Shown here piece after piece: positions 57,674 to 64,000 of a stretch of DNA of 64,000 bases. Under the pieces are notes generated by a model that worked only from the letters and a program-made list of their open reading frames with translations, was not told the origin of the DNA and did no database searches. The translations under genes and the position numbers were made by a program. The number at the start of each line of letters is the position of its first letter. Position 1 is the stretch's first letter. The stretch spans positions 62,001-126,000 of the forward strand of contig NZ_FOWK01000008.1 of NCBI RefSeq assembly GCF_900115435.1, given 5' to 3'. The DNA comes from Prevotella sp. tf2-5. Lineage in GTDB: Bacteria; Bacteroidota; Bacteroidia; Bacteroidales; Bacteroidaceae.

Positions 57674-58592
57674 TATCCTATTGATTATAGCCGGTGTGGC
57701 GATGGTGCTCTATGGAGCCGACCGTCTGACGGAGGGAGCCTCTGCCTTGGCTCGTAGTATGAATGTGCCGGAGATTATCATCGGCTTGACGATAGTTGCC
57801 GCAGGGACCTCTGCCCCAGAGCTCTTTGTCAGCATGGTATCCGCCTTGAAAGGTACGCCAGATATGGCTATTGGTAATGTGGTGGGTTCCAATACCATGA
57901 ATGCCATGCTGATAGTCGGTTGTGCTGCCATGGTAGCCCCGATGACGATCAGCAAGAGCACTGTCCGTAAGGATATCCCTTTCTCTGTCTTTGCCTCTGT
58001 GCTGTTGGTACTCCTGAGTCTTAACAGCTTTTTGGGACGCTTGGACGGTATCTTCCTGCTTGCGGGTTTCGCTTTATTTATGTATTACACCTTATCACAG
58101 GCAAAAGTCGGAGAGACAGCATCTGTGTCAGAAGTCAAAAGCGTGAAACCTTGGCTGAGTGCCTTTTTCGTGTTGTTGGGTCTTGCCCTCCTCGTTATCG
58201 GCAGTAATATCTTTGTCGACTCAGCCTCTCGTGTAGCCTATTCCTTAGGTATCAGTGAGGGTGTCGTCGGCTTGACGATAGTGGCAGGAGGAACCTCCCT
58301 TCCGGAACTTGCCACCAGTGTCGTAGCGGCACGTAAGGGACAGTCTGCCATTGCCATCGGTAATGTCATCGGCTCGAATGTCTTTAATATCCTGTTAATA
58401 TTAGGACTCACCGCCACCATCAGTCCTATGCAGATACAGGGTGTCACCCTTGTGGATATGGGAATGATGTTAGGTTCCGTATCACTGGTGTGGCTGTTCT
58501 CCTATACCCGTTATACGGTGGAGCGCTGGGAAGGTGCCCTCCTCGTTATCGGTTACCTCGTCTATCTTGGTTGGTTGCTGAGTAACGTGTAA
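57663..58592 (+). CDS. Calcium/sodium antiporter (YrbG-like, CaCA family)
   Basis: 309 residues from ATG 57663 ([20 protein letters not shown]). The earlier frame from 57555 is a shadow of the S4 gene. Two inverted half-repeats carry the alpha motifs: LTIVAAGTSAPELFVSMVSA with GNVVGSNTMN, and LTIVAGGTSLPELATSVVAA with GNVIGSNVFN. It exchanges Ca2+ for Na+ across the inner membrane. Last gene of the rplY run; it converges on an outer-membrane receptor gene with 4 bases between. Confidence 0.93.
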   Translation: MIFDILLIIAGVAMVLYGADRLTEGASALARSMNVPEIIIGLTIVAAGTSAPELFVSMVSALKGTPDMAIGNVVGSNTMNAMLIVGCAAMVAPMTISKSTVRKDIPFSVFASVLLVLLSLNSFLGRLDGIFLLAGFALFMYYTLSQAKVGETASVSEVKSVKPWLSAFFVLLGLALLVIGSNIFVDSASRVAYSLGISEGVVGLTIVAGGTSLPELATSVVAARKGQSAIAIGNVIGSNVFNILLILGLTATISPMQIQGVTLVDMGMMLGSVSLVWLFSYTRYTVERWEGALLVIGYLVYLGWLLSNV

Positions 58593-58596
58593 CCTT

Positions 58597-60804
58597 TTAG
58601 TTCCCTTTTGTGATACCTCCTACCACATCATCGTTCTCGATGCTGTGCTCCGCCTTTTTGACACTTGCCTTCAGGGAACCGAAACGGTAGCTGATGGAAA
58701 TGGCAAACTGACGCCCACGATTCCATGAGGTGCCAAGATCGCGGAAGTCACCGTTGACGGCTTCGTCACAGTATTTGGTATAACGGTCAAACGGGTCGTT
58801 GGTCATGATGCGCACCGTCAACCGGTCGTCTTTCAGGAACGAGCGTTGTAACGATGCGTAATAGCCGTACCACCCGTGCATCTTGTAATATACATTAGTG
58901 GGGTTGTGTCCTATCTTGCCATAGGCACTGAGTGACAGCTGTAGTCGCCATGGCAGCTTCTGGGTGATGTTGATGTAAATATTATCCGACCACCCAAAGT
59001 TCCGATAACCGAGGTTGGGATTCTCGTAATGCTCATAGCGCAGGTTATTATTGAAGACGAGGGTAGTGGTCTCGAATGGTTTCCATTGCGCATACTGCTC
59101 AAAGGAAGCACGGCGATAGCGTTGGATATTGTCATAGGTCAGATAGCGGATATCCCCCTCTGCTGTCTGGATGGAGGCGATGCCCCCATTACTGAACTGG
59201 TAGCCGGGAGCCAGTTGAAGGGTCAGATGCTTACCTACAAACATATAGATGAGGTTGAGGCGTTGGGAGTGAGAACTTTCCAGTTGGGGGTTACCACTCT
59301 GTATAATCGTTGGTGAGATGACTACGGCAGGATTCAGGTAGGAGATACCCGGACGGTTGATACTGGTGGTATAGTTCAGTTTCAGCGACTGTGTCTCTGT
59401 CATCTGGTATTTCAGACTTGCCTGTGGCACCCAGTCACTGAGCCGTTGGTGAAAAGTCTCTCCCTTCCCGTCAGGATAACTACCCTCCATATAACTGTAT
59501 TCATAGCGTAGTCCCGCACGTGCCGACCATTGATTTTTATTAAGGATATAATCCGCATAGCCGGCAAGGACACGGGTGGTGTGCTCGAACTGATAATCTG
59601 TCATTGGCAGGGCATCCCGATAGTCCTGTGTGTTATGACTGTTGTTATTGCGATAAATATACTTCGTTCCAATCTCTATCTGATGTCCTTTTCCAAGGGG
59701 TCGCAGCCAGTCTGCTTGAAAGGTGTGCTCCGTAAATCGCTCCCGTTCCGTTTGCAGGGTGTTGGTATAAGGGAAAGGGCGATCTCCCTTGAGGATGACA
59801 TATTCATTCTCCTGATCCGTATGTTGACGCGTCAGGGCGAGCATGTAAGAGAGTGTGAGTCGCTCGCCCTCCCGCCGCGTCTTATGCTCGAAGTCCAGTC
59901 GTCCGTTCCAAGACTGATGACTGTACCCTGGCATCCAGTATTTGTTGTTGTAACTATAGAGGAGATTCTCCCCTGATGGAGGTAGGAGTTCTGTCCAGCC
60001 GTCCCCTTGCACGTTCAATTTATAGAAATAACCACCAAATGAGGCAGACAGCAGGTTAAGGGAGTCGATGTCATAACTGGCATTGATGTCCCCAAAATGA
60101 ATGCCGCCGGGGTTGCTGCCCTCGCTATGGGAAAGCAGTCTGTTGCCTGTCTGTAGAAAGGTACGCTCTGTGTCATTGATATTCTCCGTCTCACGTCTTG
60201 ACATCCCGCCATAACCATAGTTGGCAGACAGTAGTAGTTTGCCGACCTGTCCTGTCAGGGAGGTGTAGAGGTTAGGATGATTCAAGGTGTTATAATACAG
60301 GTTGACGACCCCCGTCACCCCGTCAAGTTTCGAGTCGTCCATCATCACGATATTCAGGATAGCGTCCACACCTTCCGCATCCTCACGGGCACCAGGGTCT
60401 GTGATGACCTCGATACGCTTGACCATCGAAGCTGGCATCGCCTTCAGGACCTCCTTGGCATTCTTTGTCAGACTAGGGTCGTAATGTCCGTTCTTATAAA
60501 TCTTGAAACTGCTGTTGCCCTTCACTTTGATGTTATCATCACCGTCGACCGTCACCATCGGTACCTTGCGCAGCATATCCATCACGGTTTGTGTCTTTGA
60601 CTCCTCGTCGCCCTGTACGTCATAACCGATACGGTCTATCTCCTGCTTGATGAGTTGGCGTTGCGCCTTCACCTCGATACCCTCCAACTGCTGATCCCAA
60701 GTGATGGAGTCGTTTCCCACTTTCAGACTATCCGTCTGAGCCATAGCAACCCCTGCTTTCGCTGCCATCAGGAGCGAAAGACATACTGTTTCCCAATATT
60801 TCAT
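58597..60804 (-). CDS. TonB-receptor-like outer-membrane beta-barrel protein in ECF operon
   Basis: 735 residues. Signal peptide (MKYWETVCLSLLMAAKAGVA), plug domain (about 35-150, QTVMDMLRKVPMVTVDGDDN, IKRFxTDPGARE-like RIEVITDPGAREDAEGVDAI), then a barrel of many amphipathic strands ending YRFG...GN. There is no N-terminal carboxypeptidase or STN domain. It is last in a minus-strand run headed by an ECF sigma gene, so its expression may depend on that sigma factor. The ligand is unknown. Confidence 0.87.
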   Translation of the reverse strand: MKYWETVCLSLLMAAKAGVAMAQTDSLKVGNDSITWDQQLEGIEVKAQRQLIKQEIDRIGYDVQGDEESKTQTVMDMLRKVPMVTVDGDDNIKVKGNSSFKIYKNGHYDPSLTKNAKEVLKAMPASMVKRIEVITDPGAREDAEGVDAILNIVMMDDSKLDGVTGVVNLYYNTLNHPNLYTSLTGQVGKLLLSANYGYGGMSRRETENINDTERTFLQTGNRLLSHSEGSNPGGIHFGDINASYDIDSLNLLSASFGGYFYKLNVQGDGWTELLPPSGENLLYSYNNKYWMPGYSHQSWNGRLDFEHKTRREGERLTLSYMLALTRQHTDQENEYVILKGDRPFPYTNTLQTERERFTEHTFQADWLRPLGKGHQIEIGTKYIYRNNNSHNTQDYRDALPMTDYQFEHTTRVLAGYADYILNKNQWSARAGLRYEYSYMEGSYPDGKGETFHQRLSDWVPQASLKYQMTETQSLKLNYTTSINRPGISYLNPAVVISPTIIQSGNPQLESSHSQRLNLIYMFVGKHLTLQLAPGYQFSNGGIASIQTAEGDIRYLTYDNIQRYRRASFEQYAQWKPFETTTLVFNNNLRYEHYENPNLGYRNFGWSDNIYINITQKLPWRLQLSLSAYGKIGHNPTNVYYKMHGWYGYYASLQRSFLKDDRLTVRIMTNDPFDRYTKYCDEAVNGDFRDLGTSWNRGRQFAISISYRFGSLKASVKKAEHSIENDDVVGGITKGN

Positions 60805-60810
60805 ATCGTC

Positions 60811-61647
60811 TTACTTTTTGAGTCGTTCGATGCTCATGTCAAACAACTGCTGTATAAACTCGTCCTTTGTTTTCTTTTTTAATTTCACAATCTCTGTTGC
60901 CACTATGTTCTTCTCCACATCCTCCAACGATTTGGTATCCTTGCAAAGACGATAGATCTGTGTGGCATAGCTATTGGCTGCTGTTCCGTCTGGATTCTTC
61001 AGAAAGAGGTTCTTGTAGGTGTTGAACTCTGATAGCCATGTCTCAGACGGTTTGGTGTCAGCATCGGAGAAGAAACTGCCAAATGCGAAATTGTTGCCAT
61101 TGACCGTGATGGTTCTTGACTGCTTCTTTTCCTGTCGGAACTTCAGCGTCGTAGCATAGGTCTTGACGATACGTCCTCTGATCTTGTTGCCATTCTCTGC
61201 CCATTCCAACGCATAGGCATAGCGATGCTGACGTAGTGTGTCATTGGGGTCGAGGAAGCAAGCGTAGATCCATTTCGAGTCTTTGATCAGTCCGATGGCA
61301 ACACCTCCTTTATTACTGTCACCAACAGCGAGAGAGACAAAGTCCTCACTATTGCCATTCGACCCAGTACTGACACTATAGGCATGAGCCTCGTCCAGCT
61401 CGAAAGCCTTCCGGATATTGTCTATCAGTCGTTTATCCCGATTGTCAGTTAACTCAAAGTCGTAGGTGTCTTCCAGTCCTTCCATCGTTCCTAAATCAGG
61501 ATCCTTCTCCACACTGTGTCTTGAGCTTATTTCTTTGATGTTACTATTCCTCAGGGCATCGAATGCCTGTTGGATGTGTTGCTGTGCGAGTACTGCCGAA
61601 GGGAGTAGCATCAGCAAACCCGTGATAAGGATGTTTTTACTCTTCAT
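60811..61647 (-). CDS. Secreted protein of unknown function in ECF operon
   Basis: 278 residues with a signal peptide (MKSKNILITGLLMLLPSAVLAQ). Two parts are visible: an N-terminal half with ISSRHSVEKDPDLGTMEGLE and FVSLAVGDSNKGGVAIGLIK, and a C-terminal helical, Lys-rich half. The family is not recognised with confidence. It overlaps the upstream gene by 11 bases and precedes the barrel gene by 6 bases, so it is a co-expressed envelope partner. Confidence 0.72.
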   Translation of the reverse strand: MKSKNILITGLLMLLPSAVLAQQHIQQAFDALRNSNIKEISSRHSVEKDPDLGTMEGLEDTYDFELTDNRDKRLIDNIRKAFELDEAHAYSVSTGSNGNSEDFVSLAVGDSNKGGVAIGLIKDSKWIYACFLDPNDTLRQHRYAYALEWAENGNKIRGRIVKTYATTLKFRQEKKQSRTITVNGNNFAFGSFFSDADTKPSETWLSEFNTYKNLFLKNPDGTAANSYATQIYRLCKDTKSLEDVEKNIVATEIVKLKKKTKDEFIQQLFDMSIERLKK

Positions 61648-62254
61648 ATGCGAAATATTCTTTTGGTTCTTCTACATAAATAATGGTTCCGTCTTCCTGC
61701 ATTACTGGAACGAAGCCTGCTGCTGTCAACTGGACATGGGCAACCTCCTGTCTTGCTTGTTCTATCTGTTGTCTGACAGCCTGCTGCTCTTGTTCCATCT
61801 CCGCCATCAACGTATAAGCCTTGTCGTAGTCGTGGATAGTAGGTTTAGGCTTGCGCAGTCGTGAGCGTTGCTGTTTGACAGGCTGTTGTTTGCGCAGTGC
61901 TGTAGTATCAGGCAGAGGTTGCTCGTTGGGAGCCTCTGGACGTAGCACTGTTGTAGAATCTGCCTTCGCAGTCAAGGGGGTGGGCAGAGGAGAAGGTTGC
62001 CATAACATGGTAACAGGCAGAATCGCCATTCCAACCACTGCGGCAGCGATACTCCATCCTATCCATCGCTTTCGGTTCTTCTGGGGTTTCATCCCTTCCA
62101 TTTCCGCAAACAGCAGGCGATACTCCTCCCATTCCGCAGGCACGTTGCCTTGGGTGAAATACTGGTTAAGAATATCCTCCTCTTCCAGTGTTGTCGTACC
62201 ATCCATAAACTCGGTCAACAATAGTTGGATGTATTCCTTGGTGTATTGTATCAT
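61637..62254 (-). CDS. Putative transmembrane anti-sigma factor
   Basis: 205 residues. A cytoplasmic N-terminus (1-63) with FMDGTTTLEEEDILNQYFTQ resembles the start of small anti-sigma domains. A helix at 64-85 (WIGWSIAAAVVGMAILPVTM) is followed by a Pro/Arg/Gln-rich periplasmic tail with a coiled coil. The start overlaps the ECF sigma gene by four bases, the usual arrangement for a cognate anti-sigma. It lacks the FecR and DUF4974 domains of the other ECF locus and the zinc ligands of ZAS proteins. Confidence 0.75.
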   Translation of the reverse strand: MIQYTKEYIQLLLTEFMDGTTTLEEEDILNQYFTQGNVPAEWEEYRLLFAEMEGMKPQKNRKRWIGWSIAAAVVGMAILPVTMLWQPSPLPTPLTAKADSTTVLRPEAPNEQPLPDTTALRKQQPVKQQRSRLRKPKPTIHDYDKAYTLMAEMEQEQQAVRQQIEQARQEVAHVQLTAAGFVPVMQEDGTIIYVEEPKEYFAYEE

Positions 62255-62745
62255 ATCTTGTTCCTTCGTTTGATGTCTTCTAATAAAGACCGTCGTGCTC
62301 GTGCCAGTAGTGTACTGACGGAGGTAATTTCTATACCCAGCAGACTGGCTATCTCCTCATGGCTTCGTCGCTCCACTTGTCGCATGTATAATAAGGTGCG
62401 TTGGGTGGTGGGTAGTTGCTCCAGTTTCCTTGTCAGCCATTCCTCGTTCTCCTTTGTCTCCAAGAGTTCCTGAGGACTGAGGGTCAGTAGTATCACGCTC
62501 TCTGCATTCAGTGGCTCCATCGACCGTCGTCGTTGGTGGTTTCTTACCAAGTGGCGGGTCATCAGTGTTACCAAAGCCTCCACCGACTGGTAGTTGTCCA
62601 GTTCGTCGCGCATCTGCCACAGGTGGAGCATCACATCCTGTGCGATGTCCTCTGCCTCCTCGTTGCCCGCCCCACTGCTGCGTCCTACGCTCAAGGACTT
62701 CTGATGCCATGTGCGGGCTTGTTGTTCAAATGCGCCTTTGTCCAT
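62251..62745 (-). CDS. ECF-type RNA polymerase sigma factor
   Basis: 164 residues. Region 2 is EAEDIAQDVMLHLWQMRDEL and region 4 is LEQLPTTQRTLLYMRQVERR with SHEEIASLLGIEITSVSTLL and ARARRSLLEDI. It heads the run sigma, anti-sigma, secreted protein, outer-membrane receptor. Upstream lies a TACCTTTG -7 element and an 18-bp direct-repeat site also found at 63885, so it is probably controlled by an OmpR-type regulator, perhaps the winged-helix protein at 63362-63676. Confidence 0.9.
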   Translation of the reverse strand: MDKGAFEQQARTWHQKSLSVGRSSGAGNEEAEDIAQDVMLHLWQMRDELDNYQSVEALVTLMTRHLVRNHQRRRSMEPLNAESVILLTLSPQELLETKENEEWLTRKLEQLPTTQRTLLYMRQVERRSHEEIASLLGIEITSVSTLLARARRSLLEDIKRRNKI

Positions 62746-62823
62746 TTTATCTCATTGTCATTAATAAGACACTCAACGTCTCCAAAACCAAACAGGAATT
62801 AGTAAACCTTAACAAATTTGTCG

Positions 62824-62881
62824 CAAAGGTAGAAGGATTAAATGAAACGACCTAAAATAAAGACTGACATTTGTCTGACAA
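62824..62881 (-). promoter_or_regulatory. Promoter and direct-repeat operator of the ECF sigma operon
   Basis: The minus strand carries TTGTCAGACAAATGTCAG (62881-62864), two TGTCAG half-sites with an 11-base period, then 32 bases, then the -7 element TACCTTTG (62831-62824). The 18-mer is identical to the one at 63885-63902 and the 32-base distance to the -7 element is the same. Confidence 0.7.
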
Positions 62882-62897
62882 ATCAATCTGCTATCAA

Positions 62898-63362
62898 TTA
62901 ATAGTTGTCAAGTATCTGTTTCAGTTTCTCATGCTCTCGCTCCCTCTTTGATTTTCGATGTGGGAATAGTTTACTGATGAAATAGCCGATAAGGGATATT
63001 GGATTGACACCTGTCATCATGGCTCCACCCTGCTGTTCCTTTCGTCGTTCCTCCAGCCAATGGCTTTGATAAGCGAGTCGCATATCCGTTCTCAATGCTG
63101 GCGTTATGATATTTATGTTGACTTTGGGGCGCTCAGGTATCTGTTCTAAGGGGTTGATGGTGGAAATATGCGGTTCCATCGGGGTTATTGTCTGACTGTC
63201 ATGGGGTGTGGACCTCAAGGGCTCATTGCGTAGCCATTCCTCATAGTCGCTTTTTAACGAGTCTGTTTTCATGTGACGTTTATCATCGTCAGGACCTTGA
63301 GCACAACAGGTGGTTGTCACCAACAGAAGGGTAAAGGATAATATATAAAAAAGGTGAGACAT
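62898..63362 (-). CDS. Small secreted or membrane-anchored hypothetical protein
   Basis: 154 residues. An N-terminal hydrophobic segment (LFYILSFTLLLVTTTCCAQ) is a signal peptide, with a possible lipobox at TTCC. The mature part is polar and Pro-rich, then has one short hydrophobic stretch (NPISLIGYFISKLFP) and a Lys/Arg-rich end. I do not recognise the family with confidence; a DUF4858-type protein is possible. Its start overlaps the winged-helix gene stop by one base, so the two are translated together. Confidence 0.65.
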   Translation of the reverse strand: MSHLFYILSFTLLLVTTTCCAQGPDDDKRHMKTDSLKSDYEEWLRNEPLRSTPHDSQTITPMEPHISTINPLEQIPERPKVNINIITPALRTDMRLAYQSHWLEERRKEQQGGAMMTGVNPISLIGYFISKLFPHRKSKREREHEKLKQILDNY

Positions 63363-63676
63363 TAGAATTGTATCAAGCGATAACCAAGTCCACGTGCGTT
63401 GATGATTTTGAGGGAAGGGTCTGCCGATAGGATATGTTTCATACGTGACATGAAGACATAGAGTGAATTCAAGTTATAGATATTGTCATCATCCCAAAAT
63501 TCAATTAAGAGGATATGGTTCTCTACGATGTCACCTTGTGCCTCTATCAGCATACCAAGGATAGATGCCTCGCGAAACGACAGTTTTCTGGAAGAAAGTG
63601 TCCCGTCAAGTGCATGGAACCGTAGTTCCTGTTTCTGCAGGTTTAATTCAAAGCGTCCGATTTGTAATACGTTCAT
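63362..63676 (-). CDS. Stand-alone OmpR/PhoB-type winged-helix DNA-binding protein
   Basis: 104 residues. It consists only of the trans_reg_C domain: FELNLQKQELRFHALDG, LSFREASILGMLIEAQGDIV, and YVFMSRMKHILSADPSLKII with the wing ARGLGYRLIQF. There is no receiver domain, so it is not a standard response regulator; no sensor kinase is adjacent. OmpR-type domains bind tandem half-sites with 10-11 base spacing, and such sites flank this gene on both sides. It may be active by default, or be controlled by the co-translated membrane-type neighbour. Confidence 0.82.
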   Translation of the reverse strand: MNVLQIGRFELNLQKQELRFHALDGTLSSRKLSFREASILGMLIEAQGDIVENHILLIEFWDDDNIYNLNSLYVFMSRMKHILSADPSLKIINARGLGYRLIQF

Positions 63677-63718
63677 GACTTTGCGTTATTTGATGGGTCA
63701 GTAATATAAATGACGGCG

Positions 63719-63775
63719 CAAAGTTATAGTGAATAAACAAAACAGGAAGGCAGATTTTCCTTACAAAACCTTACA
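63719..63775 (-). promoter_or_regulatory. Promoter and possible autoregulatory direct repeat of the winged-helix gene
   Basis: The minus strand carries TGTAAGG-TTT-TGTAAGG (63775-63759), then 32 bases, then TAACTTTG (63726-63719). The half-site TGTAAG differs by one base from TGTCAG at the two outer sites, and the spacing to the -7 element is the same within a base. Confidence 0.55.
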
Positions 63776-63884
63776 GATGATTAAATTAAGGCTTTCTTAA
63801 AATATTTTTGGTTTAAAAGTCTTTCATCAAAGTAATAAAGATTAATACCTTTACTTTTGATCATGATTTAACTAAACAAATGAA

Positions 63885-63942
63885 TTGTCAGACAAATGTC
63901 AGGAATTTATTTCCCTTGTCATCGCCTGTTTTCATAACTTTG
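63885..63942 (+). promoter_or_regulatory. Direct-repeat operator and promoter facing the right edge
   Basis: TTGTCAGACAAATGTCAG (63885-63902), 32 bases, then TAACTTTG (63935-63942). This is the same unit as at 62824-62881 in the opposite orientation. The stretch 63677-63884 has no gene and is AT-rich. Confidence 0.7.
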
Positions 63943-63979
63943 CAGGAAAAACCTATATAAAGTTAAATAGTACAAACAG

Positions 63980-64000
63980 ATGATATTGTTTAGAAACAAA
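63980..64000 (+). CDS. Possible start of a plus-strand gene cut by the window edge
   Basis: ATG at 63980 opens a frame (MILFRNK) to the last base, about 30 bases after the start expected from the 63935 promoter. Too short to identify; included because a promoter and operator point at it. Confidence 0.35.

Follow-up and report, generated by a model that had tools for sequence, protein, structure and literature searches.

Among the described regulators closest to the one considered here are ToxR and CadC, in which an N-terminal winged helix is followed by a transmembrane segment and then by a C-terminal periplasmic domain. The sites of the OmpR/PhoB response regulators are typically direct repeats with a period of about 11 bp. 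Transmembrane one-component regulators are already a known kind, and in Bacteroides, according to the available part of a survey (PMC10269533), hybrid two-component proteins account for most of the membrane transcription regulators. A study of P. gingivalis (PMC10101095, available in part) lists the genes PG0214-PG0218 as up 5- to 11-fold under peroxide stress in FLL361, a strain that is presumably its PG_0686 mutant.

The locus described here lies in the window, the whole stretch of 64,000 nucleotides analysed, and carries two identical 18-mers that face divergent operons. The leftward operon encodes an ECF sigma factor and the rightward one a 223-amino acid protein, designated mWH; a stand-alone winged-helix protein of 104 residues (WH104) and a 154-residue partner are encoded between the promoters. 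Like ToxR and CadC, mWH has an OmpR-type winged helix, a membrane segment and a periplasmic part and no receiver or kinase domain, as far as the accessible portions of PMC10269533, PMC5430869 and PMC8517210 describe those proteins. Its order is reversed, with two predicted membrane helices and the periplasmic part ahead of the C-terminal winged helix, and mWH is therefore not a member of the ToxR/CadC family proper. Also unlike ToxR and CadC, it is strictly linked, throughout a genus, to a single operator-promoter geometry. The DNA-binding fold of mWH is shared with the OmpR/PhoB response regulators, with PF00486 above the cut-off in both mWH and WH104, but both proteins lack the receiver domain. 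A search of the open-licence literature found no description of an mWH-like family, of the reversed order, of a genus-wide fixed operator or of the WH104 arrangement.

The repeats and their promoters

The 18-mer TTGTCAGACAAATGTCAG is present in exact form at 62864-62881 (minus strand), where it precedes the ECF sigma operon, and at 63885-63902 (plus strand), in front of the operon encoding mWH; both are putative mWH sites. These are the only exact copies in the 3.51-Mb genome, where the next-best site is 2 mismatches off, and a scan of the window allowing up to 3 mismatches found no third site (0.09 matches expected by chance). Each copy reads TGTCAG-N5-TGTCAG with an 11-base period, and the 17-mer core of the left box is identical in G035, G257, G186 and G325. 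At both sites TAnnTTTG, which we take to be the Bacteroidota-type -7 box, is reached after 32 nt: TACCTTTG at 62831-62824 (minus strand) for the ECF operon and TAACTTTG at 63935-63942 (plus strand) for the rightward promoter. The identity, period and spacing had all been recorded in the sequence-only reading, and each was found again. In having at least two equal half-sites, a period of 10-11 bp and a fixed promoter distance, the 18-mer resembles an OmpR-type direct-repeat operator, and the TGTCAG boxes share the period of about 11 bp with OmpR/PhoB sites. The two copies thus look like real control sites at which binding is predicted, which supports the earlier description of operator-like repeats of the OmpR/PhoB kind at a fixed distance from two divergent promoters. 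Promoters of the sigma-70 type (TTGACA/TATAAT) were not enriched in L007 6700-9800 (3 observed against 6.6 in shuffles), and window positions 58000-64000 gave no Rfam match to a structured RNA at the gathering score.

The same box promoter was found in 86 of 99 loci selected by mWH and is absent from the other 13; first-order Markov copies of 60 such loci contained 0. The 99 loci comprise a set of 20 and a set of 79 (from the best 80 of 440 matches), and the sets share places (e.g. L121 is the contig of L068). Altogether, one or more box promoters were found in 107 of the 120 fetched loci, giving 100 unique sites. With 28-38 nt allowed, the distance from repeat to -7 box at these sites is 32 nt in 80, 33 nt in 19 and 31 nt in 1. 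AAW stands before the half-sites, a third TGTCAG lies 11 bp upstream (62-72% per base), and 20 nt ahead of the -7 box there is a TTNG element compatible with a -33 box.

In a set of 20 box-selected loci, picked by choice among the box matches listed, tblastn found the mWH gene in 18, and one more, L097, has a C-terminal fragment of it. The box comes after the mWH stop codon on the same strand, at most 433 bp away or overlapping, in 16 of these loci. The gene behind the box depends on the species and may be an ECF operon, a gene for a protein of about 680 residues, a TMEM260-like transferase or a protein of about 184 residues. Some of the ~680-residue proteins resemble by BLAST the 735-residue barrel described below, and a 679-residue one (L090) had no Pfam match at E ≤ 0.05. 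The large membrane protein behind the box at L141 843-3713 matches PF11028 (TMEM260-like O-mannosyl-transferase). A large membrane protein behind the box at L188 6768-9296 is, by eye, like that of L141. The ~184-residue protein has one hydrophobic N-terminal segment and no Pfam match at E ≤ 0.05, and the same search found none for a relative of the 269-residue protein encoded by the rightward operon. Behind the right promoter, at window positions 63945-63952 (L007 7946-7953), 548 bp are missing relative to G035; in G035 and the other close relatives G257, G186, G325 and L120 this segment holds the gene for the ~184-residue protein. The gap sits at a GGAAAAAC repeat, which is present on both sides of the segment in G035.

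The left operon begins with the ECF sigma factor (62251..62745, minus strand), assigned to the PG0214/GFO_1088 family (NF058625, 131.9 bits against a cut-off of 130). It is followed by a 205-residue protein (61637..62254, minus strand) with one hydrophobic segment and no family match above cut-off, a probable anti-sigma factor to judge from its position and that segment. The operon continues with a 278-residue protein (60811..61647, minus strand) without a Pfam or NCBIfam match, whose N-terminus suggests that it is exported, and with a 735-residue outer-membrane beta-barrel (58597..60804, minus strand; OMP_b-brl_3, TonB-receptor-like). The order resembles PG0214-PG0218 of P. gingivalis, where a putative anti-sigma gene and others come after a sigma factor of the NF058625 family; it differs in that PG_0216 is labelled DUF4252 in the available text (PMC10101095) and no Pfam match was found for the third gene here. 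By analogy, the induction of PG0214-PG0218 in that partly available study hints at an envelope or oxidative stress signal, a loose link as the species differs.

mWH and its proposed action

The rightward operon is cut by the window edge. The sequence beyond the edge contains the gene for a 269-residue protein (L007 8022-8831), first in the operon, followed by that for mWH (L007 8843-9514, which is G000:C7:126842-127513). The location of a winged-helix protein in the operon behind the right 18-mer makes mWH a candidate reader of the repeat. Hydrophobic stretches begin at residues 6 and 101, ahead of the winged helix (PF00486, residues 147-219, above cut-off). This Trans_reg_C domain is the only one in mWH to pass the Pfam cut-off, and no receiver or histidine-kinase domain was found. 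A DNA-binding domain and a membrane segment are thus joined in one polypeptide, as in transmembrane one-component regulators, the membrane location being predicted.

An AlphaFold model was made from 36 sequences for the relative at L120, which is 93% identical to mWH (mean pLDDT 84, pTM 0.53). In it, a long N-terminal helix (3-46) leads through a small alpha/beta part (53-96) to another long helix (100-127), which is followed by the DNA-binding domain. In a fold search with this model, the matches listed include the DNA-binding domains of PhoP, PhoB and VanR (VIA-align Z about 12), with those of ToxR lower down; the listed matches span residues 117-221 only, so that the periplasmic part is barely covered. 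In its own genome, no second copy of the mWH sensor region was found at E ≤ 10.

We consider it likely, from the sequence comparisons, that the 18-mers are mWH operators at the two divergent operons and that WH104 and its partner stand apart from them, as a pair that probably governs no promoter but its own. In this scheme, mWH would be held in the inner membrane by its two helices, with a periplasmic part of about 75 residues sensing an envelope signal. The cytoplasmic winged helix would bind tandem AAWTGTCAG half-sites with an 11-bp period, often three of them. The half-site array ends 8 bp short of the -33-like element, with 32 or 33 nt left to the -7 box, from where mWH could touch RNA polymerase. 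A box directly upstream of the -33-like element and on a fixed helical face suits an activator, and mWH probably activates both divergent promoters. Its leftward targets would be the ECF sigma factor, the probable anti-sigma factor, the 278-residue protein and the outer-membrane barrel, and its rightward targets the 269-residue protein and mWH itself, implying autoregulation. WH104 and the 154-residue partner, encoded between the promoters, would form a separate pair whose own promoter is governed by the TGTAAG repeat described below. If correct, this provides a regulator family whose operator, promoter geometry and candidate targets are available for one genus, in about 200 of the 398 genomes sampled.

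A more far-reaching proposal, which we put forward tentatively, is that mWH founds an undescribed 'inverted ToxR' family in Prevotella, with one nearly invariant operator and usually one adjacent envelope target (an outer-membrane protein, an ECF operon or a TMEM260-like transferase). In the clade of the present genome, WH104 and the 154-residue protein, possibly a split regulator, would then have settled between the divergent operators and add a second input to the same switch.

Co-occurrence of the box and mWH

The pattern TGTCAG-N5-TGTCAG-N30-35-TANNTTTG was searched for in 398 genomes drawn evenly from the larger genus and was present in 204; the backwards pattern, used as a control, gave 0. 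Relatives of mWH (E ≤ 1e-10) are present in 231 of the 398. Both were found in 194 genomes, neither in 157, mWH only in 37 and the box only in 10 (Fisher P 1.7e-60, uncorrected for shared descent). The near-complete genomes (completeness at least 97%, in handle order up to G316, G032 and G224 being missed) number 77, and of these 48 have the box and mWH, 9 mWH only, 20 neither and 0 the box only. Box presence therefore looks to track mWH.

The mWH-only genomes include 13 of 37 in which all homologues are remote (best E above 1e-24). Some boxes narrowly miss the strict pattern, being one base off in L061 and G303 and an exact repeat without TAnnTTTG in L083 and G079; the fetched stretches of L085 (an mWH locus of G028) and G508 contain no box. 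As for the 10 box-only genomes, the sites in G188 and G096 are off-spacing (31 and 34) and chance-like, and those in G115, G134, G245 and G062 lie at most 523 bp from a contig end. An mWH-like C-terminus was recognised by eye in G115 and G134, and an mWH-like remnant in G129, none of them reported by hmmsearch. The remaining three (G013, G377 and G421) showed no trace of mWH.

Of 237 genomes sampled from the order, 4 have a member of the mWH family (E ≤ 1e-15), the genome described here among them; at most 11 first-look candidates per genome were scored, and two genomes of other genera of the same family were included. G608, which belongs to another family, also has a box beside mWH, and the box of G502 is degenerate. 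The 79 mWH loci from the best 80 of 440 matches are mostly from Prevotella or Prevotellaceae, many of them from the rumen, with a few Bacteroidales and Bacteroidaceae bins.

The box could be read by some other conserved regulator of the genus, such as a response regulator encoded elsewhere, with mWH a mere linked neighbour. We regard this as unlikely. Box, mWH and targets may be co-inherited as one block, and G013, G377 and G421 fit such a reading; the genes behind the box, however, vary by species, the pair recurs in another family, and the near-complete genomes contain no case of a box without mWH.

Two further observations concern the mWH family. Remote relatives (E about 1e-20) occur in genomes that lack a strict TGTCAG box (G009, G060, G073, G087, G094 and others) and may be a subfamily that uses another operator. 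C-terminal remnants of mWH appear to lie ahead of intact boxes at L097 7006-7212 (by hmmsearch) and upstream of the box in L208 and L213 (by eye), which points to decay of the regulator gene on more than one occasion.

WH104 and the separation of its repeat from the boxes

WH104 (63362..63676, minus strand) is a winged helix with an RprY-like DNA-binding domain and no receiver. PF00486 is its only Pfam domain, which bears out the earlier view of a receiver-less protein, and the gene is intact, the close orthologues having 104-106 residues. It aligns with the C-terminal DNA-binding half of the Bacteroidales regulator RprY (NF051850, E 2.3e-15) but lacks the receiver half, scoring 56.6 bits against a cut-off of 370, and so does not count as an RprY. 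Close, stand-alone orthologues (at least 67% identity) are present in 8 of the 398 genomes. The gene for the 154-residue, probably exported protein (62898..63362, minus strand) directly follows that for WH104 in all eight, and the two are likewise kept together in a remote orthologue (L118), so the partner may be sensory. A search for viral relatives of WH104 gave 13 candidate stretches, none of which was confirmed.

The WH104 promoter has a repeat of its own, TGTAAG-N4-TGTAAG (TGTAAGGTTTTGTAAGG, 63775-63759, minus strand), a putative WH104 auto-operator, followed by the -7 box TAACTTTG (63719..63726, minus strand). The related repeat proposed earlier for this promoter thus exists, although not at the same distance: with 33 nt to the -7 box and a 10-base period, it is similar to the TGTCAG box without being the same. 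One core base also differs. The eight WH104 promoters have in common GTAAG-N2-TTTGTAAG, from which the -7 box is 32 or 33 nt away. The pattern was built from those promoters and its presence there is by construction; the test is its absence from the other 390 genomes, and it was found once each in exactly the eight WH104 genomes. WH104 thus looks to carry a separate, different repeat, and the simplest reading is that it autoregulates through this repeat, apart from the TGTCAG boxes.

The arrangement of the genes varies. The WH104 pair lies between the two boxes in G000, G035, G186 and G325 and elsewhere in G162, G212, G264 and G412. In G412 a box promoter and relatives of the 184- and 269-residue proteins come first, the pair being about 1.7 kb behind that promoter, and at L112, L113 and L115 the fetched stretch around the pair has no box. 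In G257 the same divergent operons are separated by both boxes, placed back to back with 30 bp between them; WH104 and its partner are gone from the site, and the genome is not among the carriers of a WH104 orthologue. G162 has WH104 and the TGTAAG repeat and neither mWH nor a TGTCAG box.

A two-layer control, in which mWH is the ancestral reader of the box and WH104, in this clade, also touches or competes at the boxes, is compatible with the mWH-operator explanation and, in our estimation, quite unlikely. The location of the pair between the boxes in four genomes (G000, G035, G186 and G325) and behind a box promoter in G412 favours it, as does the relatedness of the two DNA-binding domains (24% identity over 83 residues). 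Against it, the pair occurs without a box in the stretches of L112, L113 and L115, and the segments LYVFMSRMK and LYTLIRRLK, presumably the recognition helix regions of the two proteins, differ.

The sequence-only reading had assigned all three repeats to WH104, as a local three-promoter regulon. The position of the gene between the sites, the OmpR-type winged helix and the similar repeat at 33 nt before its own -7 box speak for this, but we now hold it to be very unlikely: a close WH104 orthologue is missing from 197 of the 204 genomes with the box, the TGTAAG element goes with WH104 alone, and the repeats differ in core base and period. WH104 was rejected as the reader of the TGTCAG box on the double dissociation between G257 and G162 together with the separate GTAAG element. 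If this is right, the locus is a clean case of a small regulator that is encoded between two operators and yet is not their reader.

That the ECF sigma factor reads the repeat as its own promoter element is highly improbable. One box does precede the ECF operon, but what follows the box is an ordinary promoter with -33-like and -7 elements, and ECF relatives (E ≤ 1e-25) are found in 14 of the 48 box-positive near-complete genomes and missing from the other 34, on which ground this candidate was rejected. Equally hard to credit is the idea that WH104 and its partner ride on an invertible or mobile segment with the 18-mers as its inverted ends, an outcome that the earlier reading had named as fatal to its regulon. 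The 18-mers are indeed inverted copies on either side of about 1 kb, but the boxes occur without the segment in G257 and the pair occurs without adjacent boxes in G162 and G264 (C66), arrangements on which this candidate was rejected, and the -7 spacing is fixed in about 200 genomes.

Two further features of the WH104 region were also observed. At window positions 62898-63676, WH104 is 98% identical to its orthologue in G035 and the 154-residue partner 82%. Upstream of the TGTAAG repeat, at window positions 63777-63840, there is an A/T-rich block (TTTAAGAAAG ... TTTAA, minus strand); most WH104 promoters seem to conserve it, and additional half-sites may lie within it.
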